Shown: piece after piece, positions 47,140 through 59,285 of the stretch
Numbering within the stretch: the first letter of the stretch is position 1
Layout: the number at the start of each line of letters is the position of its first letter
The notes under the pieces: model-generated
What the model saw: only the letters and a program-made list of their open reading frames with translations
Told to the model about the DNA's origin: nothing
Database searches by the model: none
Assembly: GCF_000244875.1 (NCBI RefSeq)
Contig: NC_016791.1
Coordinates: 539,501 to 603,500, forward strand
DNA from: Clostridium sp. BNL1100
GTDB lineage: Bacteria; Bacillota; Clostridia; Acetivibrionales; DSM-1351
Reading direction: 5' to 3'
DNA: 64,000 nt
Made by a program: the position numbers and the translations under genes

Positions 47140-47559
47140 GGGGGCGTAATGGTTTCGACGGGATTGTTGAGACTTGATAAGCGGGTAGAGGATTCTCGTG
47201 GGCCTCTTAAAAAACGAGAACTTAAAATTAAACGCTAAAAACGATAATTTCGCTTTAGCTGCTGCCTAATGGCAGCCCGTCAGTCCCAGGTTGCTGCACC
47301 TGGGGGCACTGGCGTCGATAAGTCAGCCCTTTTGCATAGGAAGGTTAAATGCTAGCACTGATTTGGCCGTAGCCTTGAGCCGAGTCGGAACTTAAAGGCT
47401 ACCGAAAGTGGCACCCTGCCTGTAGGGGTCCACCGTAGGGAAACGCAGGGTTCAAGTCCCGTAAGGGATACTGAGCAATGCACAAATTACAGGCTACACC
47501 CGTAGAAGTTCTTGAGGATATGGTTTCGGACAGGGGTTCGACTCCCCTCGCCTCCACCA
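47140..47559 (+). ncRNA. ssrA: tmRNA (transfer-messenger RNA)
   Basis: The 5' end GGGGGCGTAATGGTTTCGACG and the 3' end GGTTCGACTCCCCTCGCCTCCACCA-type T-arm and acceptor pair as GGGGGCG with CGCCTCC (one G-U), ending in CCA. The reading frame for the tag runs ...AKNDNFALAAA then TAA (stop at about 47268), a typical clostridial tag ending. Pseudoknot-like GC-rich hairpins follow. It rescues stalled ribosomes with SmpB and tags proteins for ClpXP. At 420 nt it is longer than the roughly 350 nt usual for the group, the extra length being in the region about 47380-47480. The prophage begins directly after its 3' end. Confidence 0.95.
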
Positions 47560-47562
47560 ACA
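47487..47562. other. Probable left attachment site at the 3' end of ssrA
   Basis: The 3' part of the tmRNA gene directly abuts the serine recombinase gene, whose last codons read antisense through it. This is the expected layout of attL for an element integrated at the tmRNA 3' end. The matching attR is outside the window, so the core cannot be defined here. Confidence 0.6.
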
Positions 47563-49034
47563 AAGCTAACAATTGTGTCAGTTTCGATATGGTTATCGAA
47601 AACGACAACACGGCAAACATAAGCCTGGATGATCCGTTTCTGATCTTCCAGGCTTTTGTTTTTTATATCGGCATCCTGACTGAGGTAGTAGTAAATCTGA
47701 TCTCTGGACGGGGAATTTATTTCAGCCTGACGCTTTGCTTCCTCGATCCTGATTACCAGAGCTGATTTTCTTGCCTCCAATTCGTCCATCTTCTGCTTCA
47801 TGGAAGGGTGGAACATTCCGTTGGCAATAGCATTTACGGTATTATTTATCTTTGTTTGAATTCCTGCTAGTTCGTTTTCGAATTCTTTTATGTTGTTTGA
47901 AATTTCAGAGGAACGGGACATTGCATATTCGGAAAGCATGTCGGCCATTCTTTCAATAGCCCCCGGAGCGAAAATTTCATTATAAAGTTGGTCAATGACA
48001 ACGTTCTCTACAAAATCAGCACCAATAGATTTCATATTGCAGGTATGATTCCTGTACCTTGTACCGCAGGTGTAGCACCTGTATTTACTTTTGTTCCTTC
48101 CTGCAAACTTTCTTTGACCGTACATACCACCATTACATTCCCCGCAAAAAACCAGACCACTCAAAAGGTAGTTTTCCTTTGCAGAGTTGGCGGCCCTGGC
48201 ACGTTTGTTTCCGATCATCTTTTTACTCACCTCATTCCATAATTCCTTTGAAATAATAGCAGGCATTCCGTTTTCCACCCGGATTATATGTTCATCCGAT
48301 TTTGAACTATGGTTATTACGCTTGCCTCCGGCTTTGCTAACAGTGCGGTTGAAAATATATGTACCGGTATATTTCTCGTTTTTCAGTATATCGTGGAGGC
48401 TATTCTTGCCGAAGGACCGCCCGGACTTGCTCCTGTAGCCCTCACGGTTCATGGTGTCAATTATCTCATTGTAGCTGTGGCCTGAAGCATACATTTCAAA
48501 TATGGTTCTTACAATCCGTGCTTCAGATTCATTTATAGCATAGCTTTTGTCAGAGAGTACATCGTAACCAAGGGGTGGAGTACCTCCGTTGTGCCTGCAC
48601 TGTAGGGCAGTTTCCTTCATGCCCTTCATAACCTCACGGGCAAGGTTTGCACTGTAGTACTCGGCCATGCCTTCCAACACTGATTCAAGAATGATATTCT
48701 CCGGGCTGTCGTCCAGATTTTCCAGAACAGATATAAGCTTCACACCGTTCTTTTTCAGCTGTCTTTTGTAGAAGGCAGAATCGTACCTGTCACGGCTGAA
48801 CCTGTCCAGTATGTGGACTATAACAGCATTGAACAGCCCTGTTGCACTGTCTTTCATCATCTGCAGGAACTGTGGCCTGTTGTCTGTTGTGGCGGATCGT
48901 GCCTCATCAGAATATATCTTTACTATGCTATAACCGTTTCTTTGGGCATATTCATTAATGGCCCTTACCTGTGCATCTATGGATTCCTCTCTTTGGTTGT
49001 CGCTTGAATATCTTGCATATATAGCAGCTATCAT
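47487..49034 (-). CDS. Large serine recombinase (integrase)
   Basis: About 515 residues from ATG 49034, eight bases after GGAGG; longer readings lack this site. The N-terminal resolvase domain has the catalytic serine in IYARYSSDNQ and arginines in DRFSRDRYDS. Next come the recombinase domain (GTPPLGYDV, LHDILKNEKYTGTY), a zinc ribbon (CGECNGG, then CYTCGTRYRNHTC) and a coiled-coil. It integrates and excises the element. About the last 24 residues (from GGGEGSRTPVRNHILK) are encoded by the antisense of the tmRNA 3' end, so the native C-terminus in the excised form may differ. immA lies 16 bases upstream in the same operon. Confidence 0.93.
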   Translation of the reverse strand: MIAAIYARYSSDNQREESIDAQVRAINEYAQRNGYSIVKIYSDEARSATTDNRPQFLQMMKDSATGLFNAVIVHILDRFSRDRYDSAFYKRQLKKNGVKLISVLENLDDSPENIILESVLEGMAEYYSANLAREVMKGMKETALQCRHNGGTPPLGYDVLSDKSYAINESEARIVRTIFEMYASGHSYNEIIDTMNREGYRSKSGRSFGKNSLHDILKNEKYTGTYIFNRTVSKAGGKRNNHSSKSDEHIIRVENGMPAIISKELWNEVSKKMIGNKRARAANSAKENYLLSGLVFCGECNGGMYGQRKFAGRNKSKYRCYTCGTRYRNHTCNMKSIGADFVENVVIDQLYNEIFAPGAIERMADMLSEYAMSRSSEISNNIKEFENELAGIQTKINNTVNAIANGMFHPSMKQKMDELEARKSALVIRIEEAKRQAEINSPSRDQIYYYLSQDADIKNKSLEDQKRIIQAYVCRVVVFDNHIETDTIVSFVGGGEGSRTPVRNHILKNFYGCSL

Positions 49035-49050
49035 GACATACACCTCCATG

Positions 49051-49557
49051 TTATATTCTTTCATAAATATGTACTGACGGAAAGTTGGCAAGGTACAAAC
49101 TTCTTTTACCGTCTATGTCCCACAGACAATTCTGCTTTGACATAAATTCCAACTTTTGAAGCATGAACTCATTTGTTACCTGAAAGTATTCCACCAGACC
49201 ATCAAATGACGGTTGAAGCCATTCTCTAAGGGAATCAATTAGCATACCTGTAGGTACCATGAAATCTGTTGCCCACCGTAAGGCCAATTGTTCAATTTTG
49301 TCCACCGTGAGCCTATCCCTGTAGCACATGTATTTCCGTGGGGTTATATCGCCGATGGTGGTCCTGTAGTGGCCTATCTCTTCTGCAAGGACACAGCGGT
49401 AAAGCTTCTCATCATCCCTGATACTTTCGTTAATCAAAATAACATAGTAGTTCCCATCACAATAATAGTATCCCAGTATTGATTCCGGCAAGGGGGCAAA
49501 TTCCTTGATAATGTGACATTTTCTACATATAAATTCTAGTTTTTCTGTTAGTATCAT
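49051..49557 (-). CDS. ImmA/IrrE-type metallopeptidase
   Basis: About 168 residues from ATG 49557 (GAGGTAACC upstream). The motif LAEEIGHYRTT keeps the Glu and second His of the HExxH metallopeptidase site with Ala in place of the first His, a variant I associate with phage ImmA-like proteins; the following LRWATDFMVP fits the family. In ICEBs1 ImmA cleaves the repressor to start induction. Here it is the first gene of a leftward operon with the recombinase and has a LexA box at its promoter. Its usual neighbour, the repressor gene, is 8 kb away. Confidence 0.82.
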   Translation of the reverse strand: MILTEKLEFICRKCHIIKEFAPLPESILGYYYCDGNYYVILINESIRDDEKLYRCVLAEEIGHYRTTIGDITPRKYMCYRDRLTVDKIEQLALRWATDFMVPTGMLIDSLREWLQPSFDGLVEYFQVTNEFMLQKLEFMSKQNCLWDIDGKRSLYLANFPSVHIYERI

Positions 49558-49579
49558 ATGGTTACCTCGAATAATTTGT

Positions 49580-49599
49580 CGAACGTATGTTCTATTATA
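49580..49599 (-). promoter_or_regulatory. SOS (LexA) box and -10 of the immA-recombinase operon
   Basis: CGAACGTATGTTCT at 49580-49593 fits the Gram-positive LexA consensus CGAACRNRYGTTCG at all but the last position. It lies directly downstream of a minus-strand TATAAT at 49594-49599, so LexA would cover the start site. The -35 is weak. This links excision functions to DNA damage. Confidence 0.7.
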
Positions 49600-49627
49600 T
49601 AACATAACTTATAATTTTAAAAGGATA

Positions 49628-49656
49628 AAAAATGTGACATGTTGTTTCACATTTTT
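49628..49656. repeat. Ten-base inverted repeat before the restriction gene
   Basis: Perfect arms AAAAATGTGA / TCACATTTTT (49628-49637 and 49647-49656, nine-base loop) between divergent immA and endonuclease genes. It could be an operator for restriction-gene control or a terminator-like boundary of the cargo. Confidence 0.4.
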
Positions 49657-49714
49657 ACGCATGCTGATATAATTAACGTATAAAATGTATAAAATTAACA
49701 AGTGAGGTAGGTAT

Positions 49715-51130
49715 ATGTTCTTAACTGAGGAATTACCTTATAAGCACGATTGTCCTAAATCTATTGAAGATTATGCTAAAAAACTTATAGATAAAAGCTT
49801 TAAAGAAATATTTAATAAGGATATTGAAAAGGCTGGAAATAAAGGTGGTCTTGGTCAGTTACTAGAAGAAGAGTTTTTTTATCTTCAGAACAATAGTGAT
49901 TCTGAACCTGATTTCAAAGAAGCTGGCGTTGAGTTGAAGGCGACACCTTTTAAAAAGAAAAAGTCCAATTCGTTTTGTGCGAAAGAACGTCTTGTACTCG
50001 GCATAATCAATTATATGGAAGTACATAAGGAAGAGTTTGATAAGAGTTCTTTCATGAAGAAAAATGCCTTATTACTTTTGGTTTTTTATTTATATGAAGA
50101 AGGCGTAAGTCGCTTAGATTATTTAATAAAGTTTGTACAGTTATTTCAATTTCCTGAAAAGGATCTTTTGATAATCAGGGACGATTGGAACAAAATTGTG
50201 GGAAAAATAAGGTTAGGACAAGCACATGAACTTTCTGAGGGGGATACTAATTTTTTAGGGGCATGTACGAAAGGTGCCAATAAGGAGACGGTAAGACAAC
50301 AACCTTTTAACAACATAAAGGCAAGGCAGAGAGCTTTTTGTCTTAAGCAATCATATATGACTTACGTTTTAAATGAGTACATTATAAAGGAAAAGAAAAC
50401 TTATGATGCAACTCTAATAAAAGATCCTAAAGTATTAAAAAATCAATCATTTGAAGATTTTGTAATATCAAAAATATCAGCTTTTGCCGGAAAGAGTATA
50501 GATGAATTGTCAACAATCTTTGATGTACATATAGACCCTAAGGCAAAAAATTATGCATCAAGAGTTGCTGACAATGTAATGTTGGGAATTTTAGGTGTAA
50601 ATAGTAAGAAAATAGAGGAATTTAAAAAGGCTAACATAAAAATAAAGACTATAAGGTTGGAGAACAATGGTAAATTAGTTGAAAGCATGTCGTTTCCTGC
50701 TTTTAAGTTCACAGAAATAATAAAAGAAGAATGGGAAGAATCAACTTTAAGAGAAATGTTCCTTAATACCAGATTTTTATTTGTAATTTATCAATACGAT
50801 GAAAATGAGGTGCTTAAACTTAAAAAAGCTATGTTTTGGAATATACCATTTAATGATTTAGAGGATGATGTCAGGGATGTTTGGCAAAAGACAGTTGAAA
50901 CGGTTATATCAGGGGTTAAGGTTATAAAGAAAAGTGGTAAAAGGGAATTCAATAACCTACCTAGTGCAAAAGAAAACAGAGTGGCACATGTAAGGCCTCA
51001 TGGTCGGGATAAGACTGATACGTATCCATTACCTACTGGAGGAGAATTCCCAAAACAGTGTTTTTGGTTAAATAATAGTTATATTCTGGGGCAGATTACA
51101 AAGAATGATTCTATAGGAGGTATAGAATAA
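49715..51130 (+). CDS. Sau3AI/MutH-family restriction endonuclease
   Basis: 471 residues, close to the 489 of Sau3AI. The MutH-type catalytic core is visible near the N-terminus: KGGLGQLLEEEFF (first acidic residues), then Asp66 in EPDFKEAG and Glu73-x-Lys75 in VELKATPF, and KERLVLG. The second half likely forms the MutH-like C-terminal domain that helps bind a second site. Sau3AI recognises GATC; this target is an inference. A C5-cytosine methyltransferase is encoded convergently 280 bases away, completing a type II pair. Base composition is AT-rich compared with the recombinase gene, suggesting separate acquisition. Confidence 0.85.
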   Translation: MFLTEELPYKHDCPKSIEDYAKKLIDKSFKEIFNKDIEKAGNKGGLGQLLEEEFFYLQNNSDSEPDFKEAGVELKATPFKKKKSNSFCAKERLVLGIINYMEVHKEEFDKSSFMKKNALLLLVFYLYEEGVSRLDYLIKFVQLFQFPEKDLLIIRDDWNKIVGKIRLGQAHELSEGDTNFLGACTKGANKETVRQQPFNNIKARQRAFCLKQSYMTYVLNEYIIKEKKTYDATLIKDPKVLKNQSFEDFVISKISAFAGKSIDELSTIFDVHIDPKAKNYASRVADNVMLGILGVNSKKIEEFKKANIKIKTIRLENNGKLVESMSFPAFKFTEIIKEEWEESTLREMFLNTRFLFVIYQYDENEVLKLKKAMFWNIPFNDLEDDVRDVWQKTVETVISGVKVIKKSGKREFNNLPSAKENRVAHVRPHGRDKTDTYPLPTGGEFPKQCFWLNNSYILGQITKNDSIGGIE

Positions 51131-51131
51131 A

Positions 51132-51384
51132 ATGGCTTGGAAAGAGGATTAAACAGCGGAGGAGGAATTATACAAAAATAAGTCTGATTAAAAAGGCTCA
51201 AGCTATCAGAAATACGAATCAATATGGTCCCATTGACAAGGATAGAAGTAAGAAATTTTATTTTTACTTTACTGAAAATAAAGATGAAAAGCCCATAAAC
51301 CTTGTTATTTACAAAGATAAGCTAATCCAATTAGCAGATAGTCATTACATAGTAACAAAAGAAAAAGTAACAAGATTAAAATAA
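51132..51384 (+). pseudogene. Small decayed gene between endonuclease and methyltransferase
   Basis: An ATG at 51132 starts a frame MAWKED, TAA, TAEEELYKNKSD, TAA, KGSSYQKYESIWSH. It looks protein-like but has two in-frame stops. An overlapping frame is then open to 51384 and reads like a conserved C-terminus (KFYFYFTENKDEKPINLVIY, then KVTRLK), with no ATG, GTG or TTG start of its own. Best read as one small gene broken by stops and a frameshift. The family is unrecognised; it could have been a controller or accessory protein of the restriction system. Confidence 0.5.
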
Positions 51385-51405
51385 GGTCGGATTTCCGACC
51401 TTATT
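51380..51405. terminator. Bidirectional terminator between endonuclease region and methyltransferase
   Basis: Perfect 11-base arms AATAAGGTCGG / CCGACCTTATT with a four-base loop, between convergent units. Confidence 0.8.
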
Positions 51406-51407
51406 CT

Positions 51408-52607
51408 TTATAGTTCATTTTCAAATATCTGATTCAATTTCCTTCCCATACGCTCAATCAGACCTACTACTAAAGCATTACCCATGCAGAAATATCTGAA
51501 TTTTTCAGGCATGCCAGTATTTGTCCAGTTATCGGGGAAGCCGTTAATTCTTTCAGCCTCCACCGGAGTAATTAACCTGTATTTATCGGGATGGTCAATA
51601 TCACTAACAACATGGGTACTCCTGTTCAGGCTGGATTCGCTTGTTAGCATTGTTCTTGCAGGTCTATCATGTGGATCAGGGAAAACCATAGCTCCCTCAG
51701 AAAATGTATATTTGAAGCCTTGTGCAGTAGTTCTTTCAATTTTTTTTGCCCCTTTGAGGAATTCCCATTTGGCTAAATCCCCATTTAAAAAGTACCTTTC
51801 ATCTACGTTATGTTCAAGGATTTGTCCAATTGTAACCGGGTTTTCATATATAGGAACTGTTTCTTCGGTATAAATCCTACCACCTGTCATAAAACCGGAA
51901 TTTTTAAAACTGAATGTAAAATGATTTGATATATCGGCTATATCATTGTAGATTAAATCAGTCTCAGAATTTAACTTTGATTCTAGCTCTACAGGAAATT
52001 GGTCTGCGAAGAAACCATTTCTGTGTATATGGCTTTCCAAATCGGTAGGATTTATATTGTTAAAATACATGGTGTCATTCCTACAGGCAAAAATGAATAT
52101 CCTGCGACGTCTCTGAGCCATTCCATAGTCGGCTGCATTAATAACTCTCCATTCTACAGAATAACCAAGGTCATTGAAGCAAGCTAGCATTATACCAAAG
52201 TCTCTACCTCTCTGGCTTGATGGTGATTTCAGTAGTCTGTCTACATTTTCAAGAAGTACGAAGGCTGGATTCTTCTCAATCAATATGTCCCTTATCTGCC
52301 ACCACAGTACGCCTTTATGGCCGACTATTCCTTGAGCCCCTGTCCTTGCCACGGAATAGTCCTGACATGGGAAACCGCCCATAAGCAGATTGTGGTCAGG
52401 TATAGTGCTTTTATCAATTTCTGCAATGTCCCTATTGACATGCTCAGGCCTATTACCGAAATGTTGAACATAACAATTAAAGGCGTGCTGAGAAGCCTTT
52501 TTTGGTTCCCACTGATTAGCCCATACACAGTGCCAATTACCTGCTTGTTCCAAACCTTTCCGAAACCCGCCGACCCCCGCAAACAACTCACAAACCGTTT
52601 TTTCCAA
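51408..52607 (-). CDS. DNA (cytosine-5)-methyltransferase
   Basis: 399 residues from TTG 52607, which follows GGGGGG; the longer frame to 52694 starts at a TTG with no site. All C5-methylase motifs are seen in order: I (ELFAGVGGF), IV with catalytic Cys81 (GGFPCQDYS), VI (LLENVDRLL), VIII (QRRRRIFIFA) and X (GNALVVGLIERMG), with the target-recognition region between. It protects the sites cut by the neighbouring Sau3AI-type enzyme, presumably by methylating C in GATC. Some other defence systems (DISARM) also pair a C5 methylase with an SNF2 helicase, as found here. Confidence 0.93.
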   Translation of the reverse strand: MEKTVCELFAGVGGFRKGLEQAGNWHCVWANQWEPKKASQHAFNCYVQHFGNRPEHVNRDIAEIDKSTIPDHNLLMGGFPCQDYSVARTGAQGIVGHKGVLWWQIRDILIEKNPAFVLLENVDRLLKSPSSQRGRDFGIMLACFNDLGYSVEWRVINAADYGMAQRRRRIFIFACRNDTMYFNNINPTDLESHIHRNGFFADQFPVELESKLNSETDLIYNDIADISNHFTFSFKNSGFMTGGRIYTEETVPIYENPVTIGQILEHNVDERYFLNGDLAKWEFLKGAKKIERTTAQGFKYTFSEGAMVFPDPHDRPARTMLTSESSLNRSTHVVSDIDHPDKYRLITPVEAERINGFPDNWTNTGMPEKFRYFCMGNALVVGLIERMGRKLNQIFENEL

Positions 52608-52809
52608 AAGAGACCCCCCATTAACTACAGTTAAAAAATGATATGCAATAAGATTATACAATAAAAACATGTGTTTGGGAAGATCAAATTTCAAAGAATC
52701 ATAACCCTTTGGATGAATTGGAAAAAGACCTTATGTAATTCTTAAACAACTTATTATGTTTTAAAAAGAACTCATGCTTAATCTGCTGTTATCAAAAAAT
52801 GTCACTCTA

Positions 52810-52838
52810 TTGAATGCAATGCCATAGTTTGGTAAAAT
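52810..52838 (+). promoter_or_regulatory. Promoter of the ParB-like/SNF2 operon
   Basis: TTGAAT, a 17-base spacer and TAAAAT, ending about 33 bases before the ParB-like start. The spacing is ideal and the boxes are good. Confidence 0.6.
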
Positions 52839-52870
52839 TTACAGTATATGAATTGAAATAGGAGGATACA

Positions 52871-54184
52871 ATGGAGAAAAAAGAGAGAATTAGTAAATTG
52901 AATGATATTAAAGATCAACAGAAAGATAATCCGGCAATGTCTGGAATAAAAATAAAATATAATGGCTCGGTTCAAAAATTTAATGCTTTTAGAATACCTT
53001 TGGATTGCTTGATTTTTAATAAATATAATGGAAGGATTGCTAGATTTGTAAAATCATACGAGAAACAGTATCACCATGAACTGGATGCAGAAAATCCTGA
53101 TGATGAAAAAGTAATAGAAAATTTTTTGTGGGAATCGAACAAGCCTAAAAATCGAATAACAATGAACAATATAGTTATGAATGAGCAACAGAAATATGGA
53201 ATAGTTACCAGCGATGGACGAATTATTGACGGAAATCGTAGGGCTATGATTTTAAAAAGAATACATAAAAACAGAGATGAATGGCGTAAAAAAGGCCATG
53301 ACGTTGGACATAGCGAGTATTTTACTGCAGTAATCTTGCCGGGAGATATGTCTCCCAAAGATATTATGGAGCTTGAAACCACTTATCAAATGGGAGAAGA
53401 TGAAAAACTTTCATACGATGCAATAGAAAAATACTTAAAGTGCAAGGATTTAAAACAGGCTGGATTTAATGAAGGCGATATCGCTTTAATGATGAGCGAA
53501 ACAAAGGAAAAAATAGTAGAATGGCTAGAAATAATGAAATTGATGGATGATTATTTGCGGACTAAAGGGTATGAAGGAATATACACTCAACTTGAAGATA
53601 GCGAGGATCTTTTTATCAATTTAAACAATACATTAAAAAGATTAATATCTGGTAGTAGTCAAGTAAATTGGGGATATAATAATTTAAACATATCTAGACT
53701 TAAGGCAGTATGCTTTGATTACATAAGAGCAAAATACGAAGGTAAAGAATACAGAAATATTATAAAATTAAGCAAGAAGGATGGGGTTTTTTGTAATAAA
53801 GAGGCTTGGGACCAATTCAATAAAGAGCATAAAGAAAGTATTGACAAAGTAAGTAAAGAAGAGAAAACCGTTGAAGAGTATATCAAGGAAAATCCCGGTG
53901 TCGATTTGACGAGACTTTTAAAAGAAAGAGATTCGCTTTGGAAAAAGCAAGTTGAAGATAATATGAAGGAGAACCTTGGAAAAACGGTCGCTTGGATCCA
54001 GAATAAAAATAAAGCTAATGAACCTATAGAACTGTTAACAAAGATTTTAAGCATAATTGATTTAATAGATCCTTATAAACCTACTTTTTATGAGGATACA
54101 AAAGTTGAAGATTTAGTTAATGCTATTAATTCAGCTACGTATGATTATAAGAAAATAATAAAAGAGAAAAGGAAGAGTAAGTGA
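52871..54184 (+). CDS. ParB-like protein (partner of SNF2 helicase)
   Basis: 437 residues. The segment VTSDGRIIDGNRRAMILKRI has Asp120-Gly-Asn-Arg-Arg124, the DGNRR-type motif of ParB/sulfiredoxin-fold proteins (CTP/ATP binding or nuclease). The rest is mostly charged and helical with no recognised domain. A TAGGAGG precedes the ATG, and its TGA overlaps the helicase ATG, so the two are made in equal amounts and probably act together. It is divergent from the methyltransferase. Function in defence is an inference from position; I do not recognise a described system with this exact pair. Confidence 0.7.
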   Translation: MEKKERISKLNDIKDQQKDNPAMSGIKIKYNGSVQKFNAFRIPLDCLIFNKYNGRIARFVKSYEKQYHHELDAENPDDEKVIENFLWESNKPKNRITMNNIVMNEQQKYGIVTSDGRIIDGNRRAMILKRIHKNRDEWRKKGHDVGHSEYFTAVILPGDMSPKDIMELETTYQMGEDEKLSYDAIEKYLKCKDLKQAGFNEGDIALMMSETKEKIVEWLEIMKLMDDYLRTKGYEGIYTQLEDSEDLFINLNNTLKRLISGSSQVNWGYNNLNISRLKAVCFDYIRAKYEGKEYRNIIKLSKKDGVFCNKEAWDQFNKEHKESIDKVSKEEKTVEEYIKENPGVDLTRLLKERDSLWKKQVEDNMKENLGKTVAWIQNKNKANEPIELLTKILSIIDLIDPYKPTFYEDTKVEDLVNAINSATYDYKKIIKEKRKSK

Positions 54185-56133
54185 TGGGAGCTATTCAAAT
54201 AGATATTGATAAAGAAAAAAATTCATACATACTAAAGGGTGATTTGATAGAACTTAAATCGGATGTAACAGCAGTATTCTTTTTAAAGGATTTTCTTCAT
54301 GCCGAGTTTCAAAATCCAGAAGAGATATTAGTTCCATTTGAGAAAGACACTAAAGAGTCAATCCTTAACCAAATTAGAGAAATGTTAATAGAATTTGGTA
54401 TGGCTGAATATCAATCTGAATATTTAAAAAAAGAGATGGAAGATTTCCTTCAGGAGGATGTTAATTTTAAAGAATTTTCTAAAAAGGCTTATAATATTCG
54501 TAATAATAACTGCGACAGTACAGAATTTGATAGCTTTATTAAAAGTTTAGAAGCTAATTTACCTGAAAGGACGTTATACCCTTTACAAGCTTTATGCTCA
54601 TTCCATCTCGCTTTTTCACAGAATGCTTGTAATTTTTCTGTACCTGGAGCTGGAAAAACAAGTATTGTGTACGGAACATATTGTTATTTGAAATCATTAG
54701 ATACAAGAGATAATAAGCATGTTGATAAGATACTTGTTATTGGGCCGTTGAGTTCCTTCGGCCCATGGGAGAATGAATATGAAGAATGTTTTGGGGTAAA
54801 ACCTAATTCTAAAAGACTTTCTGGAGGAGTAAATAGAGAGGAAAAAATCGATTATCTATACTCAACAGAGACAGCAGAGGTGACATTAATATCTTACCAA
54901 GGGATATTAAACATTTTTCAAGAATTGGTATACTTTTTAAATAAAAATAAGGTAATGGTAGTTTTAGATGAGGCTCATAGAATTAAAAATACTTCAGGTG
55001 GTAGTATTGCATCAACTGCTCTTGAGCTTTCTAGATTTTCAAAATCACGAGTGATTTTGACTGGTACGCCTGTGCCGAATGGGTATGAAGATTTATATAA
55101 TTTATTTAAATTTATTTGGCCCACAAAGAAAATTATTAGATTTCACCTTTATCAACTAAAGGATATGTCGATTCATCGTGATGAGGAAAGAGTTCGTATG
55201 CTTATTGATGATATATCACCTTATTTTATAAGAATTAAAAAAAGTGATTTAAAAATTCCCGAACCGATAGAACATCCACCGATAAAAGTTGAAATGGGTT
55301 ATCAACAGAGACGGATTTATGAATACATAGAAAATAATTATGTGAGGTCTTTTAATTGCATGCAGGGTACTGGAATTAGAGATGCAATAATAAATGCAAA
55401 GCTCATAAGATTGATGCAGACAGCAACTAATCCATTCATGCTAAGAAAACCGATTGATGAATATTATTCACAGGACGGATTTAATGAAGGGGTCTTTATT
55501 GATGATTATGAAATCATTCAAAGTATAATTAATTATAAATCAAATGAAGTACCTCAAAAGTTTATTAGAACAGCAGAACTAGTAAAAGAGATTTTAAATC
55601 GTGATGAAAAAGTTATTATATGGACTGTATTCATTCAAAACATTTTAGATTTACAAGAATATCTTATGTCAATAGGAATAAATGTTGAAGTCTTGTATGG
55701 TGCTGTGCCTATTGATATGGAAGAGAATGAAATAACAGCATATACACGAGAAAGTATAATAAGAGAGTTTCACAAAACAGACTCTATGTTTAAAGTTATT
55801 ATTGCAAACCCTATGGCTGCCTCAGAATCTATTTCTCTACATAAGGTATGTCATAACGCAATTTTCCTCGATAGATCTTTTAATGTTTCACATTTTATTC
55901 AATCAAAGGATAGAATCCACAGGTATGGCCTTGAGAAAAAAGTCAACTATTATTATATTCTATCAAATAATTCAATTGACGAGGTCATTCACGAAAGATT
56001 GGCAATAAAGGAGAAAAGAATGATGGAAATAATAGAAAATGAGCCAATACCTCTCTTTAAAAATATAGAGGATGACTATGATGAAAGTGATTTTAAACTC
56101 ATATTAAAGAGATATACAGAAAGATTAGGTTAA
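54184..56133 (+). CDS. SNF2-family helicase/ATPase
   Basis: About 649 residues. Walker A is SVPGAGKTS (Lys158), Walker B DEAH at 262-265 (VVLDEAHRIKN), motif III ILTGTPVPNGYEDLYNLF, and motif VI QSKDRIHRYG near 573, in the SNF2 order. The P-loop PGAGKT differs from the usual DEMGLGKT. The N-terminal 130 residues are unassigned. It likely moves along double-stranded DNA and remodels or restricts invading DNA with its coupled ParB-like partner and perhaps the neighbouring restriction-modification pair. The ATG follows AAGGAAG. Confidence 0.88.
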   Translation: MGAIQIDIDKEKNSYILKGDLIELKSDVTAVFFLKDFLHAEFQNPEEILVPFEKDTKESILNQIREMLIEFGMAEYQSEYLKKEMEDFLQEDVNFKEFSKKAYNIRNNNCDSTEFDSFIKSLEANLPERTLYPLQALCSFHLAFSQNACNFSVPGAGKTSIVYGTYCYLKSLDTRDNKHVDKILVIGPLSSFGPWENEYEECFGVKPNSKRLSGGVNREEKIDYLYSTETAEVTLISYQGILNIFQELVYFLNKNKVMVVLDEAHRIKNTSGGSIASTALELSRFSKSRVILTGTPVPNGYEDLYNLFKFIWPTKKIIRFHLYQLKDMSIHRDEERVRMLIDDISPYFIRIKKSDLKIPEPIEHPPIKVEMGYQQRRIYEYIENNYVRSFNCMQGTGIRDAIINAKLIRLMQTATNPFMLRKPIDEYYSQDGFNEGVFIDDYEIIQSIINYKSNEVPQKFIRTAELVKEILNRDEKVIIWTVFIQNILDLQEYLMSIGINVEVLYGAVPIDMEENEITAYTRESIIREFHKTDSMFKVIIANPMAASESISLHKVCHNAIFLDRSFNVSHFIQSKDRIHRYGLEKKVNYYYILSNNSIDEVIHERLAIKEKRMMEIIENEPIPLFKNIEDDYDESDFKLILKRYTERLG

Positions 56134-56184
56134 TCCTTATTAATCTTTAATAAAGAAATTTAAAGAGAGTTTAAAACATATTTA

Positions 56185-56646
56185 CTATATATACCGTAAG
56201 GCTTTCTTCAACCACACAACCACTATAATAAAATATGTTAAGCCAAAAAGGAAAGAAGCGTTTTCAATATTAAATATGATAATATTATTTGTTCTGGTGA
56301 TTAGGGTTACAAGTGCGAATAAGGCTGACAATACGTGAAAAGCTATTCCCCAGAATACACTTCTTTCTATTTTAGCCCAATATCCAGCTTTTATTAAGGT
56401 TTGAATGAAACTTTTATCCCTAATACTAATCATTATTCCTATGCCTGTTAACAAAAAACCAGCTAGTGTCAAATTAATAGTAAGTATAGCATTTTGGTCA
56501 ACTTTAGTTAAATCAAGTTTACCATTAATATTGATTATCCAAAAAAATAGCTCAAAAAAGAGTAAAGCAATAACAGGAAAGAACCAAATATAATTTTTCC
56601 TAAAAAATCTATTTATATCTGAAATAGCATTAAGAACTTTAAACAC
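56185..56646 (-). CDS. Four-helix membrane protein, possible effector
   Basis: 153 residues, starting at GTG 56646 directly after the upstream stop codon (coupled). Four membrane segments at about 20-37, 50-73, 95-118 and 128-146, with a positively charged N-terminus. I do not recognise a family. Its coupling to a soluble zinc-finger-like protein under a LexA-like box suggests a membrane effector (pore or depolariser) controlled by a sensor, but this is inference. Confidence 0.6.
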   Translation of the reverse strand: MFKVLNAISDINRFFRKNYIWFFPVIALLFFELFFWIININGKLDLTKVDQNAILTINLTLAGFLLTGIGIMISIRDKSFIQTLIKAGYWAKIERSVFWGIAFHVLSALFALVTLITRTNNIIIFNIENASFLFGLTYFIIVVVWLKKALRYI

Positions 56647-56647
56647 A

Positions 56648-57589
56648 TTAAACCCCTACCTTCACATGAAGAACAATGTTTTCTAGTAATTCTGCTTTAA
56701 TAGTATTATATGCTTCATAAAGAGCAATTTTTATTATTTCCTCTGTAAAATTTTCATCAATTTTTATATTCATTCCTTTAGTGAAATAAAGTTCAAGGAC
56801 GTTGATACATTGCTGATGGTCATCAGTTGGTTTGGCTAATAATTCTAACTTCTCAAGTTTGTATTCATTTTCAAAAGAGCCATTAACTAATTTATAAGTT
56901 TCTTTTGTATGATTTATTATATCATGGGGATTCTTCCGCTTTGGGTTTTTACTATCCATGTATAGCTTTAACTGACAACGCTCAAAACCATCCTTTTTAA
57001 ATTGATTAATAATTTCAAAACTTGTACATAATTTGTTATCACCTAATAGCTCTTCTGGCGGAACTGCAAATGATAACTCAACAGCAGCCACTTCCTCGAT
57101 TTTATCCAGGGACCTGTTTACATCCCGATTTTTAATAGCATATATTTCTGGATCTAACTCAGCATCATGGTTAATTATATTTTTTAGAATCTTTATATCA
57201 GGTGCACCTTTAGCACTCATAACAGATATTATTCCAGTAAAGTAGTCCATATAAAAATATGTATAATCTTCAAGAATTGTGTTGGGAGCCAAACTTAATT
57301 CACTATGAGCCAAATTAGTGATATCACGGATTCTGCGCTGCCGCTTTTCATTTCTTGTCCTTCCAATAGTACCAAATAAACAGGTCTTATTATGTTCTAA
57401 AATATCTACAAAGTGATCATTACAAATTGAACACGATGAGTATGGACCCCAATCAGGATCTTTATTTGCTTTTATATCATTCATATTAAATCTTTCATCG
57501 AAAATTTTGTAAAATGTACTTTCAGGGAAATAATCTAATTGAAACAATTTTTTAATATCAAGTTTATAAAAATAAATATTTTTATACAT
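56648..57589 (-). CDS. Unknown soluble protein with N-terminal zinc-finger-like motif
   Basis: 313 residues. CSICNDH (Cys53, Cys56, His59), then His66 and Cys70 form a plausible zinc site followed by a basic stretch (RTRNEKRQRRIRD). The remainder is alpha/beta with no recognised domain and no membrane segments. It is the first gene of a two-gene minus-strand operon with the four-helix membrane protein, and a LexA-like box lies 41 bases upstream. The gene is AT-rich. Possibly a sensor or inhibitor for the membrane partner. Confidence 0.6.
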   Translation of the reverse strand: MYKNIYFYKLDIKKLFQLDYFPESTFYKIFDERFNMNDIKANKDPDWGPYSSCSICNDHFVDILEHNKTCLFGTIGRTRNEKRQRRIRDITNLAHSELSLAPNTILEDYTYFYMDYFTGIISVMSAKGAPDIKILKNIINHDAELDPEIYAIKNRDVNRSLDKIEEVAAVELSFAVPPEELLGDNKLCTSFEIINQFKKDGFERCQLKLYMDSKNPKRKNPHDIINHTKETYKLVNGSFENEYKLEKLELLAKPTDDHQQCINVLELYFTKGMNIKIDENFTEEIIKIALYEAYNTIKAELLENIVLHVKVGV

Positions 57590-57629
57590 AGAATTACTCC
57601 TTTATTTTATCACAAAAATTCTAAAAAGA

Positions 57630-57641
57630 GAACATATGTTT
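57630..57641 (-). promoter_or_regulatory. LexA-like box before the two-gene cassette
   Basis: GAACATATGTTT fits the core GAACRNRYGTTY at every position, though the outer C and G of the full box are missing. It lies about 41 bases before the start of the minus-strand operon. Confidence 0.5.
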
Positions 57642-57739
57642 TACAAAATAATTCCAAGCTTTACAAAAATATTATCATTTGTTGCTATAAAAAACAATGA
57701 AATTGTGTAAGATAATGTCACAATTCTTATAAAATTAAA

Positions 57740-57761
57740 AAACAGCATATAAATGCTGTTT
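57740..57761 (-). terminator. Terminator of the first Xre repressor gene
   Basis: Perfect arms AAACAGCAT / ATGCTGTTT with loop ATAA, followed on the minus strand by TTTTAATTTT, just past the repressor stop codon. Confidence 0.8.
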
Positions 57762-57773
57762 CCTAAATAAAAT

Positions 57774-58121
57774 TTACTTCCCTTTCAAACCCCCATCCGG
57801 GTTATATTTCAGTTTTATAAGTTCGATATAATCTTCCACTTGCTTTAAAGCTTCATCCGGCAAGCCAGTAACATCAAGATTGTAATAGGCCTTTGTTGCA
57901 ATTTTGGATTCATTAAAATTCTGTATATTTGAACGTCCAAGTAAATAATCAATGGAAACACCGAAATAATCAGCTATTTTGATTAGCATTTCAGGGACTG
58001 GTTTACTTTTTCCTGACTCATATTTAGTATACGTGCTTCTTCCAATTTTAAGAGCAGAAGCCACATCAGCTTGGGTTAATTTTTTTGATTCTCTTAATTT
58101 CCTAAGTAATTTTTCTTCCAT
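57774..58121 (-). CDS. Xre-family repressor, copy A
   Basis: 115 residues: an N-terminal helix-turn-helix (LTQADVASALKIGRSTYTKY) and a short C-terminal tail (GLPDEALKQVEDYIELIKLK) shared almost word for word with copy B at 58570. The DNA-reading helices differ strongly between the copies. It should repress the divergent Cro-like gene through GTGAA/TTCAC sites. GAGGTATACTT precedes the ATG. Confidence 0.88.
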   Translation of the reverse strand: MEEKLLRKLRESKKLTQADVASALKIGRSTYTKYESGKSKPVPEMLIKIADYFGVSIDYLLGRSNIQNFNESKIATKAYYNLDVTGLPDEALKQVEDYIELIKLKYNPDGGLKGK

Positions 58122-58145
58122 AAGTATACCTCTATATTATTGTAT

Positions 58146-58194
58146 GTGAATTATTTTCACCTTGTAAACGTGAAATGTGAATATTACCCTTCAC
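58146..58194. promoter_or_regulatory. Operator-like sites of immunity copy A
   Basis: GTGAA-N5-TTCAC at 58146-58160, and GTGAA at 58170-58174 and 58177-58181 with TTCAC at 58190-58194. They lie in the divergent gap between repressor A and Cro A, and differ from the operators of copy B. Confidence 0.55.
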
Positions 58195-58216
58195 TTGATA
58201 TGGAAGTAAATGAGAA

Positions 58217-58414
58217 ATGAAGTGGTTTAAAATCATTAGAGAAAACTCAGACTTAACACAGGGAAAGATTGCCGAGAGAAGGGTGATTAGTAAATTTGAA
58301 ACTGGAAGTGCGGAACCTTCACCTGACACAGCAAAAGCGATTGCTGTGGTCTTGGATTTTGAATGGACAAAGTTCCTTTATGAAAAGCAAGAATCCGAGG
58401 CAAGGGAAATATGA
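58217..58414 (+). CDS. Cro-like HTH protein of copy A, shortened HTH
   Basis: 65 residues. The helix-turn-helix reads GKIAERRVISKFETG; compared with the B-copy protein (EAAEKLDISKDYLCMLENG) it is about five residues shorter between the first helix and the recognition helix. The rest of the Xre pattern is kept (SAEPSPDTAKAIAVVL). The shortening likely damages DNA binding, in line with decay of copy A. The start site is weak (GGAAG). Confidence 0.6.
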   Translation: MKWFKIIRENSDLTQGKIAERRVISKFETGSAEPSPDTAKAIAVVLDFEWTKFLYEKQESEAREI

Positions 58415-58450
58415 ATATCCCTTTTAAAAACAATATTCAAAAATTACGGG
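58397..58450 (+). repeat. 54-base direct repeat, copy 1
   Basis: 50 of 54 bases match 59286-59339. The match begins before and ends within the coding start of the third gene of each immunity module, and stops sharply after ACGGG. Confidence 0.9.
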
Positions 58451-58482
58451 TACTTGCTCATATAAAATATTTGAATCTTTGA
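58411..58482 (+). pseudogene. Truncated Xre gene of copy A
   Basis: 23 codons: MNIPFKNNIQKLR, matching the start of the intact gene at 59300, then unrelated VLAHIKYLNL and stop. It is the 5' remnant left by a deletion inside the duplicated module. Confidence 0.75.
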
Positions 58483-58569
58483 AATTATTCTTTCTATGGA
58501 CATAATATAAAGTATCTTTATAAATATTTTAAATAAATGCAAAAAAGGAATGTACTTTTTATTTATAAT

Positions 58570-58905
58570 TTACTTCTTTAAACTCCCATCCGGGTTATAC
58601 TTCTGCTTTACAAATTCAATATAGTCCTCAACCTGTTTAATGGCTTCATCAGGCAGGCCAGCAATATCAAGATTGTGGTAAGCCTTCGTTTCAACTTTTC
58701 CGGTTTTACGGATATCAGATCTACATAGGAGATAATCTATAGATACATCAAAAAAATCAGATAGTTTTCTTAATGTATCGGTATCAGGATCTCTTTCTCC
58801 TGTTTCATAGAACCCAACTGATCTGTCGGAAACATTAAGTTGTTTAGCTAATTCCATTTGGGTTAAACCTTTTTCTTTTCTTAATTCCCTTAATCTATTA
58901 TTCAA
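58570..58905 (-). CDS. Xre-family repressor, copy B
   Basis: About 111 residues, with HTH GLTQMELAKQLNVSDRSVGF and a C-terminal tail (GLPDEAIKQVEDYIEFVKQK) almost the same as copy A. AGGAG lies one base before GTG 58914 but about ten bases before TTG 58905, which I prefer. It is probably the working repressor of the element, acting on the ATTGTWCGAT sites. ImmA, its likely antagonist, is encoded at 49 kb. Confidence 0.88.
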   Translation of the reverse strand: MNNRLRELRKEKGLTQMELAKQLNVSDRSVGFYETGERDPDTDTLRKLSDFFDVSIDYLLCRSDIRKTGKVETKAYHNLDIAGLPDEAIKQVEDYIEFVKQKYNPDGSLKK

Positions 58906-58929
58906 AAAATTCACACTCCTATTACATAA

Positions 58930-59037
58930 ATTATAACTAATTGTTCGATTTATTTAAACAATGTGAACTAATTGTACAGAAAAATAAAATAATAACTTGA
59001 CATCGTACAATATGTTCAATATAATAAATCGAACAAT
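58930..59037. promoter_or_regulatory. Divergent promoters and four operators of copy B
   Basis: Rightward promoter: TTGACA (58997-59002), 17-base spacer, TATAAT (59020-59025), a perfect consensus. Leftward -10 at 58930-58935 (minus TATAAT). Four related sites: ATTGTTCGAT at 58940-58949 and 59028-59037 (opposite strands, within a 14-base inverted repeat 58941-58954 / 59023-59036), ATTGTACAGA at 58971-58980 and ATTGTACGAT (minus) at 59002-59011. The last two overlap the rightward promoter, so repressor binding would shut off the Cro side. Confidence 0.75.
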
Positions 59038-59054
59038 AAGTACGGAGGTGTGCA

Positions 59055-59285
59055 ATGGATACGCTTAAGGAAATAAGAGAATCAACTGGTTTAAAACAAT
59101 ACGAAGCAGCAGAAAAGCTCGACATTTCAAAAGATTATTTGTGTATGCTTGAAAACGGTAAAAGGCAACCAAGTAATAAATTGATTTCAAGAATGTCAAC
59201 ATTATATGATATCAATCCAGAAAAAATTTTTTTAGTATGCAACAGAACAATATGTACGGAAAAGGTTTGCCGAGAATCCGCATAG
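59055..59285 (+). CDS. Cro-like Xre regulator of copy B
   Basis: 76 residues with HTH LKQYEAAEKLDISKDYLCML. GGAGG precedes the ATG. It is the first gene from the strong rightward promoter, in the position of Cro. Confidence 0.82.
   Translation: MDTLKEIRESTGLKQYEAAEKLDISKDYLCMLENGKRQPSNKLISRMSTLYDINPEKIFLVCNRTICTEKVCRESA

Follow-up and report, generated by a model that had tools for sequence, protein, structure and literature searches.

We analysed a stretch of 64,000 nucleotides from Clostridium sp. BNL1100 (contig NC_016791.1, positions 539,501 to 603,500; hereafter the window), in which an earlier note, made from the sequence alone, had proposed a new defence locus at positions 49715-56133. 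All four open reading frames (ORFs) were found where that note placed them: a MutH-type endonuclease, a C5 cytosine methylase, and a stop-start-coupled pair made of a ParB-like protein and an SNF2-family ATPase. We found that the ParB-SNF2 pair is a real and widespread module linked to restriction-modification (R-M) genes, that nucleases are exchanged beside it, and that the four-gene locus is exchangeable cargo of an ssrA prophage. A function in defence is likely from this context, and from it we infer the activity and mechanism set out below.

The endonuclease (49715-51130, plus strand) is of the Sau3AI type, a double MutH-like enzyme. It matched the NCBIfam Sau3AI family above the family's curated cut-off (E 7e-172), Pfam MutH (E 4e-39) and, over its full length, the solved structure of Sau3AI (E 9e-81), and its catalytic residues D66, E73 and K75 were invariant across 8 aligned sequences, the window's among them. 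The methylase gene (51408-52694, minus strand; Pfam E 1e-67) is convergent with it and encodes a protein 46-47% identical to the methylases of four related loci (L010, L012, L014 and L015); judging by relatives, its listed TTG start is probably too early. With both MutH-like halves, the catalytic D/E/K residues, an endonuclease above the curated cut-off and an adjoining C5 methylase, these two genes have the make-up of a Sau3AI-type type II R-M system; most Sau3AI systems lack the ParB-SNF2 pair. A terminator-like hairpin lies between the convergent genes (51378-51407); the frequency of such hairpins in the region was not above chance. The methylase presumably marks self DNA at GATC. The ratio of observed to expected GATC was 0.45 in window positions 1-47480 and 0.60 in the prophage (47480 to about 85170, read with L115-L116), and two same-genus prophage stretches without these genes gave 0.66 and 0.81. 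GATC avoidance was therefore rejected as a footprint of the locus, and the counts are uninformative on specificity, because relatives without the genes show the under-representation too.

The ParB-like protein (52871-54184, plus strand) is preceded by a ribosome-binding site, AGGAGG, at 52860-52865, and contains a DGNRR box (residues 120-124), a box III-like LETTYQ and a helix-turn-helix (HTH). Nothing matched it over the cut-off in Pfam, nothing was listed for it in NCBIfam, PADLOC or PHROGs, and when solved structures were searched by profile, the three matches obtained were weak and none was a ParB. Its relatives, likewise, had no match over the cut-off in any library searched; a ddrB-ParB match below the cut-off was seen in 6 of 10. 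When a joint profile of the family and its distant plasmid relatives (39 sequences) was aligned by hhalign with 30 canonical ParB proteins, the match had an E value of 1.4e-4 and a probability of 53%, and it was co-linear, pairing DGNRR with GERR, LETTYQ with the ENLQ box and the two HTHs with each other. As controls, four unrelated families gave E values of 0.09-0.74, and each sub-family profile alone gave a weaker match (E 0.0039 and 0.011). The features of the ParB superfamily, box II arginines, box III and HTH, thus occur in order, by a modest profile match. R123 and R124 were invariant in 29 of 29 sequences. According to a survey of ParB-fold proteins, nucleotide binding is abolished by changing a conserved box II arginine (PMC12704722). 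The ParB-like protein is predicted to bind nucleoside triphosphates (NTPs).

The end of this ORF overlaps the GTG start of the SNF2 gene (54181-56133, plus strand) by 4 bases, which confirms the translational coupling described in the earlier note. The ATPase has 650 amino acids (aa), matches SNF2 in Pfam (E 3e-23) and has no fused nuclease domain that we found; Pfam gave no phospholipase D (PLD) domain in it. Its motifs GK159T, DEAH and QSKDRIHR are intact and invariant in 19 sequences, and a motor function is predicted. The residue singled out earlier as K158 is K159 when counted from the GTG. In PADLOC the protein matched ZorD (E 3e-32), DpdE (5e-18) and DrmD (3e-10), and its relatives gave generic matches only in the libraries searched, save for the PbeA-like N-terminal domain of the PLD type. 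As to the pair's own promoter, proposed in the earlier note, the gap contains one plus-strand promoter-like match (52810-52838), no better than chance, and 52 such matches were found in the region against 49.1 +/- 8.1 expected. The pair must presumably be transcribed separately from the methylase, because the methylase gene is divergent from it.

To place the pair, relatives of the ParB-like protein were collected from 17 genome-contig loci, 13 viral-contig loci, 5 phage records and 67 plasmid records (67 of 72,556 searched), and 12 plasmid stretches with the pair were read. In the genome samples, with the own genome counted, the protein occurred in 3 of 100 relatives, 7 of 398 genomes of the phylum and 5 of 391 of the class. 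Gene order was read with profiles built from the collected loci, and short excerpts, duplicates and control loci (L018-L020, L040-L046, L055-L071, L081-L110 and L114) were left out of the count. SNF2 was the next gene on the same strand for 48 of 53 ParB-like ORFs, at a spacing of -23 to +15 bases. The remaining five comprised two cut by contig ends, two paralogues before a hydrolase gene and one 705-aa ORF. All 3 ParB-like ORFs of loci fetched later were also paired with SNF2, with overlaps of up to 34 bases. A C5 methylase lay within 8 kb of 41 of the 51 pairs, two of these by weak matches (38 bits in L079, 58 bits in L053). Among the 10 others, three pairs stood beside type III Mod/Res genes (L023, L024, L051) and one near type I hsd genes (L025); L031 is a locus cut short, L022 has a dcm gene about 9 kb from the ParB start, and no C5 methylase was seen within 8 kb of the pair in L052, L054, L076 (a 9.7-kb contig) and L080. 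The loci span Bacillota, Bacteroidota, Pseudomonadota and candidate phyla. This recurrence is far above chance, and the expectation that the pair would be met near different R-M types was borne out by the gene neighbourhoods.

The ParB-like family also occurs in other company. In L004 (14343-16443) and L011 (6384-8477), a second ParB-like paralogue is followed by an alpha/beta-hydrolase gene, beside a methylase-ParB-SNF2 set; the hydrolase of L004 is weakly LmuA-like (PADLOC E 1e-12), and the paralogue is perhaps the same sensor with a lipase-type effector. In L078 (7346-10795; genome G082), the 705-aa ORF with a ParB-like domain stands beside a C5 methylase without SNF2.

The partners of the pair vary, and they include Sau3AI-type and BanI/DpnII-like endonucleases, proteins with a NOV_C (DUF3883) domain, a fused PLD domain, a TIR domain, and type III or type I genes. 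In one layout, a C5 methylase, the ParB-like protein and SNF2 are followed by a protein of about 330 aa that ends in a NOV_C domain with GYD...EVK; DUF3883 is termed a restriction endonuclease domain in one paper (PMC3710099). In a Pedobacter locus (L003, 13241-14293), the protein has a related N-terminal part and, instead of NOV_C, a ThsB-like TIR domain (PADLOC E 1e-45). A second order, BanI/DpnII-like endonuclease, ParB-like, SNF2, NOV_C protein, C5 methylase, is seen in phage and viral-contig loci and in some genome loci, the endonuclease being assigned by a Pfam match in L021 alone and by blastp in its relatives. Sau3AI-type genes accompany the pair in the window, L010, L012, L014, L015 and L038, and in a distant branch (L026, L047, L048, L049 and L077); the gap between SNF2 and the Sau3AI gene that comes next is 3 bases in L012 and 9 in L015. 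A further type has an SNF2 protein with an N-terminal PLD-like domain, with the HxK motif in 6 of 6 checked and a Pfam PLDc_2 match in L026. Finally, some pairs are accompanied by type III genes, by type I genes or by a large protein: in L025 (5513-7960), L052 (4825-7419) and L077 (4561-7251), related proteins of 815-896 aa lie directly before the ParB-like gene, which is followed by SNF2, and the one of L052 has a sigma-70 region-4-like HTH.

Many relatives thus carry a nuclease gene or domain that the window's cassette lacks, a point that, like the prophage cargo, goes beyond the earlier note. No NOV_C gene was found by profile in the window's cassette, and no nuclease other than the Sau3AI-type endonuclease was recognised in the set, either in the window or in four related loci that also lack the NOV_C gene. 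In the window's clade of the SNF2 tree (30 rows), all 24 rows without Sau3AI have a third gene, which is NOV_C in 23 of them and TIR in the other, and 5 of the 6 rows with Sau3AI are without it (Fisher 4e-5, uncorrected for kinship). Excluded from the tree were near copies and cut loci (L031, L033, L037, L039, L048) and the later-fetched L134-L136; among these, L031, L033, L134 and L135 carry NOV_C. Half-length forms of Sau3AI also occur: L010 and L038 have only the catalytic half, with D/E/K in place, L026 has only the non-catalytic half, beside a PLD-SNF2, and L047 and L048 have a 512-aa protein with the non-catalytic half and at most a weak MutH match. This distribution and the half-length forms suggest that the place of the NOV_C nuclease is taken by Sau3AI-type nucleases. 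On the tree as a whole, the Sau3AI label needs 8 changes, against a mean of 9.2 for shuffled labels (93 of 500 shuffles as low), so the Sau3AI link was gained or lost several times. Distances between ParB-like proteins agreed with those between SNF2 proteins (r 0.97, 34 loci); SNF2 and Sau3AI distances did not agree (r 0.10, p 0.25, 8 loci, with the half protein of L026 and the two copies of L047 left out).

The best explanation, which we hold tentatively and with slightly less than even confidence, is a prophage-carried, methylation-guarded, ATP-dependent restriction or exclusion cassette with an interchangeable nuclease, here probably the Sau3AI-type enzyme. The C5 methylase would mark self DNA, and the ParB-like protein, as an NTP-binding and DNA-binding protein, would load the SNF2 motor on foreign DNA, which keeps the earlier suggestion of loading or licensing the translocase as a conjecture. 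The motor would move along or remodel foreign DNA and bring the nuclease into action or block replication. In many relatives the nuclease would be the dedicated NOV_C protein or the PLD domain fused to SNF2, and in the window the Sau3AI-type endonuclease, perhaps physically coupled to the pair, probably takes that place. A bolder and doubtful extension sees the pair as a portable activator, in which a ParB-type NTP switch works together with an SNF2 motor to make ATP-dependent, modification-guarded restriction machines out of different nucleases. Joined to a MutH-type enzyme, this activator would serve GATC restriction in the way that MutS and MutL serve MutH in repair. L010 and L038, with a catalytic MutH-like half beside the pair, would be the purest form of such an arrangement and L026 its mirror image. 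The pair seems to be a component of antivirus defence that several systems share and that has gone largely unrecognised. If this is true, accessory defence beside R-M systems of types I, II and III rests on a single motor-plus-switch unit, AbiR-like abortive infection is joined to restriction, and the ParB fold, familiar chiefly from DNA clamps in segregation, gains a restriction role; it then becomes testable in what way foreign DNA is read by SNF2 motors and whether AbiR is of a restriction type.

Several observations weigh against the cassette with an interchangeable nuclease. The ORF taken as a diverged ParB-type protein owes that assignment to a modest profile match, the loci were found through ParB similarity, and several of them are near copies of one another. 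L014 has both NOV_C and Sau3AI, and the agreement between SNF2 and C5 methylase distances (r 0.73, 10 loci) lies between that of the other two comparisons. Among the 11 other Sau3AI genomes of the phylum and class samples, a ParB-like match (E 1e-10 or better) was found in one (G434), and in none of the 7 of the class sample; nor did any of the 4 viral-contig loci found with Sau3AI have the pair, one of them being a short contig. Since most Sau3AI systems are without the pair, it is not required for Sau3AI restriction and might use another effector. No ParB-SNF2 pair was seen in the Sau3AI loci L050, L111-L113 and L118-L121, and a viral-contig scan with the half-length MutH returned only L038, which has the pair. 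Co-occurrence of both in genomes was not significant (1 of 397 other phylum-sample genomes, 0.06 expected, p 0.06; 0 of 390 other genomes of the class sample), and the adjacency of Sau3AI and the pair in G434 (L077) is the stronger fact. Among plasmids, 6 of 19 Sau3AI records hold the pair too, in one with the genes about 12 kb apart; this overlap is description only, because it is strongly inflated by near-identical plasmids.

The most substantial rival, possible but rather unlikely in our judgement, is that the pair is a divergent AbiR, an abortive infection system that would block phage DNA replication and borrow only the R-M methylase while Sau3AI cuts alone. LlaKR2I is reportedly a Sau3AI isoschizomer cutting GATC, and AbiR is said to have three genes in two loci around LlaKR2I and to act on phage DNA replication; the pair has perhaps been met once before, as lactococcal AbiR. 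The three-gene rows of L025, L052 and L077, whose 815-896 aa proteins are candidates for a third AbiR-like component, favour this rival, as does the frequency of Sau3AI systems without the pair, but the window is without such a gene, and the NOV_C or PLD nuclease of many relatives suggests DNA cleavage. Compared with the AbiR and LlaKR2I genes of Lactococcus plasmid pKR223, as these are described, the window's genes lie on a prophage rather than a plasmid and number two against a reported three. No Lactococcus and no record resembling pKR223 occurs among the 19 plasmid Sau3AI records, and no match named AbiR was among the PADLOC matches listed, a library that may not contain AbiR. In a preprint (PMC10925250), AbiRc is listed among SNF2-family helicases, and AbiR is described as needing an associated methylase, a cited title naming the LlaKR2I methylase; the locus has an SNF2-family protein that may correspond to AbiRc and a methylase on which the pair may depend. 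The novelty of the pair is moderate, because AbiR may be the same system. The claim that no described system ties a ParB-fold protein to SNF2 is therefore probably wrong, also in view of Dpd, which joins a ParB-like and an SNF2-like protein; a literature search, with most subscription papers outside it, did not find the ParB-SNF2 pair itself described.

It is improbable that the R-M system and the pair are independent passengers that merely share a cargo slot. The slot content is varied, clustering is common among defence genes, Sau3AI distances differ from those of SNF2, and genome co-occurrence alone falls short of significance; yet the adjacency is repeated in distant lineages, with 3 or 9 bases between the genes in L012 and L015, and Sau3AI occupies the place of the NOV_C gene of relatives. 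A regulatory pair is less probable still: its genes are divergent to the methylase gene and DndB has been proposed as a regulator, but a regulator would have no need for the SNF2 ATPase found in 48 of 53 cases, nor for the accompanying PLD and NOV_C nuclease domains. A partition or replication function of the prophage or a plasmid, suggested by the ParB resemblance and the mobile-element setting, is extremely unlikely and was set aside: a scan of nine proteins in and around the cassette found no ParA, the neighbours are R-M genes, and many relatives lie in chromosomal or plasmid R-M loci.

Known systems were also compared. For DISARM, Zorya and BREX the SNF2 similarity is merely generic. DISARM shares a C5 methylase and an SNF2-family helicase with the locus, and the earlier note had put it aside for lack of DrmA, DrmB and DrmC. 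We agree: among the PADLOC matches listed for six proteins (the best 25 of 61 for the methylase and the best 25 of 29 for SNF2), DrmB and DrmC were absent and DrmA appeared solely as a 19-bit helicase match, while the methylase matched DrmMII at E 2e-37 against 1e-173 for a type II methylase model, and the DrmD match of SNF2 was generic. PbeABCD is a tested motor-nuclease system guarded by DNA modification, made of an HKD/PLD-SF2 helicase, a small protein, a CxC ABC-ATPase and a DndE-like protein. The PLD-SNF2 members L026 and L049 have the PbeA N-terminal domain (E 5e-67 and 3e-62), but no ParB-like protein is among the four Pbe proteins so described, which are tied to phosphorothioation or lie partly near methylases; in the window, SNF2 has no PLD domain by Pfam, and no ABC-ATPase is among the nine proteins scanned. 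Dpd resembles the locus in uniting ParB-like DpdB and SNF2-like DpdE in one modification-based system. It differs in that the window's ParB-like protein has no PADLOC match and the cassette has an ordinary C5 methylase; no DpdA-type transglycosylase, DpdB or deazaguanine gene was listed for the proteins scanned.

The locus lies in a prophage whose probable attachment site is the transfer-messenger RNA (tmRNA) gene, ssrA (47140-47559, plus strand). About 37.6 kb downstream, where the prophage probably ends, a stretch of 18 bases repeats the 3' end of the tmRNA with one mismatch (E 0.03). A serine integrase (47487-49091, minus strand; Pfam Resolvase/Recombinase, PHROG integrase E 6e-121) is followed by an ImmA/IrrE-like protease (49051-49605, minus strand; Pfam Peptidase_M78 6e-7, PHROG metallo-protease 2e-20) at the left edge of the cargo slot. 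To the right of the cassette lie repressors and a DnaD-like loader, and then terminase, portal, protease, capsid, tail and endolysin genes. Two same-genus genomes, G009 and G005, carry flanks alike at 91-95%, up to about 49595 and from about 59273, and close integrases were found in two same-genus genomes (88% and 87%). Between the flanks, the slot (49600-59270) has no blastn match to the prophage of G009, and in G005 the sole match to this segment is a 0.6-kb repressor stretch. The slot of G009 (L072, 7393-13712) holds a TPR protein, an RnlA-like toxin, an RNase HII-family protein and an AAA ATPase. That of G005 (L073, 3628-11317) holds a C5 methylase with a BsaWI-like endonuclease, a GmrSD_N protein, an AIPR protein and a SIR2-like match below the cut-off; in both, a few further genes were unscanned or without a match. 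Because the flanks are conserved and the content is exchanged for other restriction- or toxin-like genes, we regard the segment as a slot whose cargo is genes of the defence type.

Two more genes, on the minus strand (56185-57589), separate SNF2 from the repressors; they encode a probable membrane protein of 153 aa and a protein of 313 aa, neither with a family match over the cut-off. They were considered as a missing third part and left as separate cargo, with no blastp match beside L001-L017. The 313-aa protein has one weak relative, in an Acetoanaerobium phage, which was seen in the genome record of that host too.

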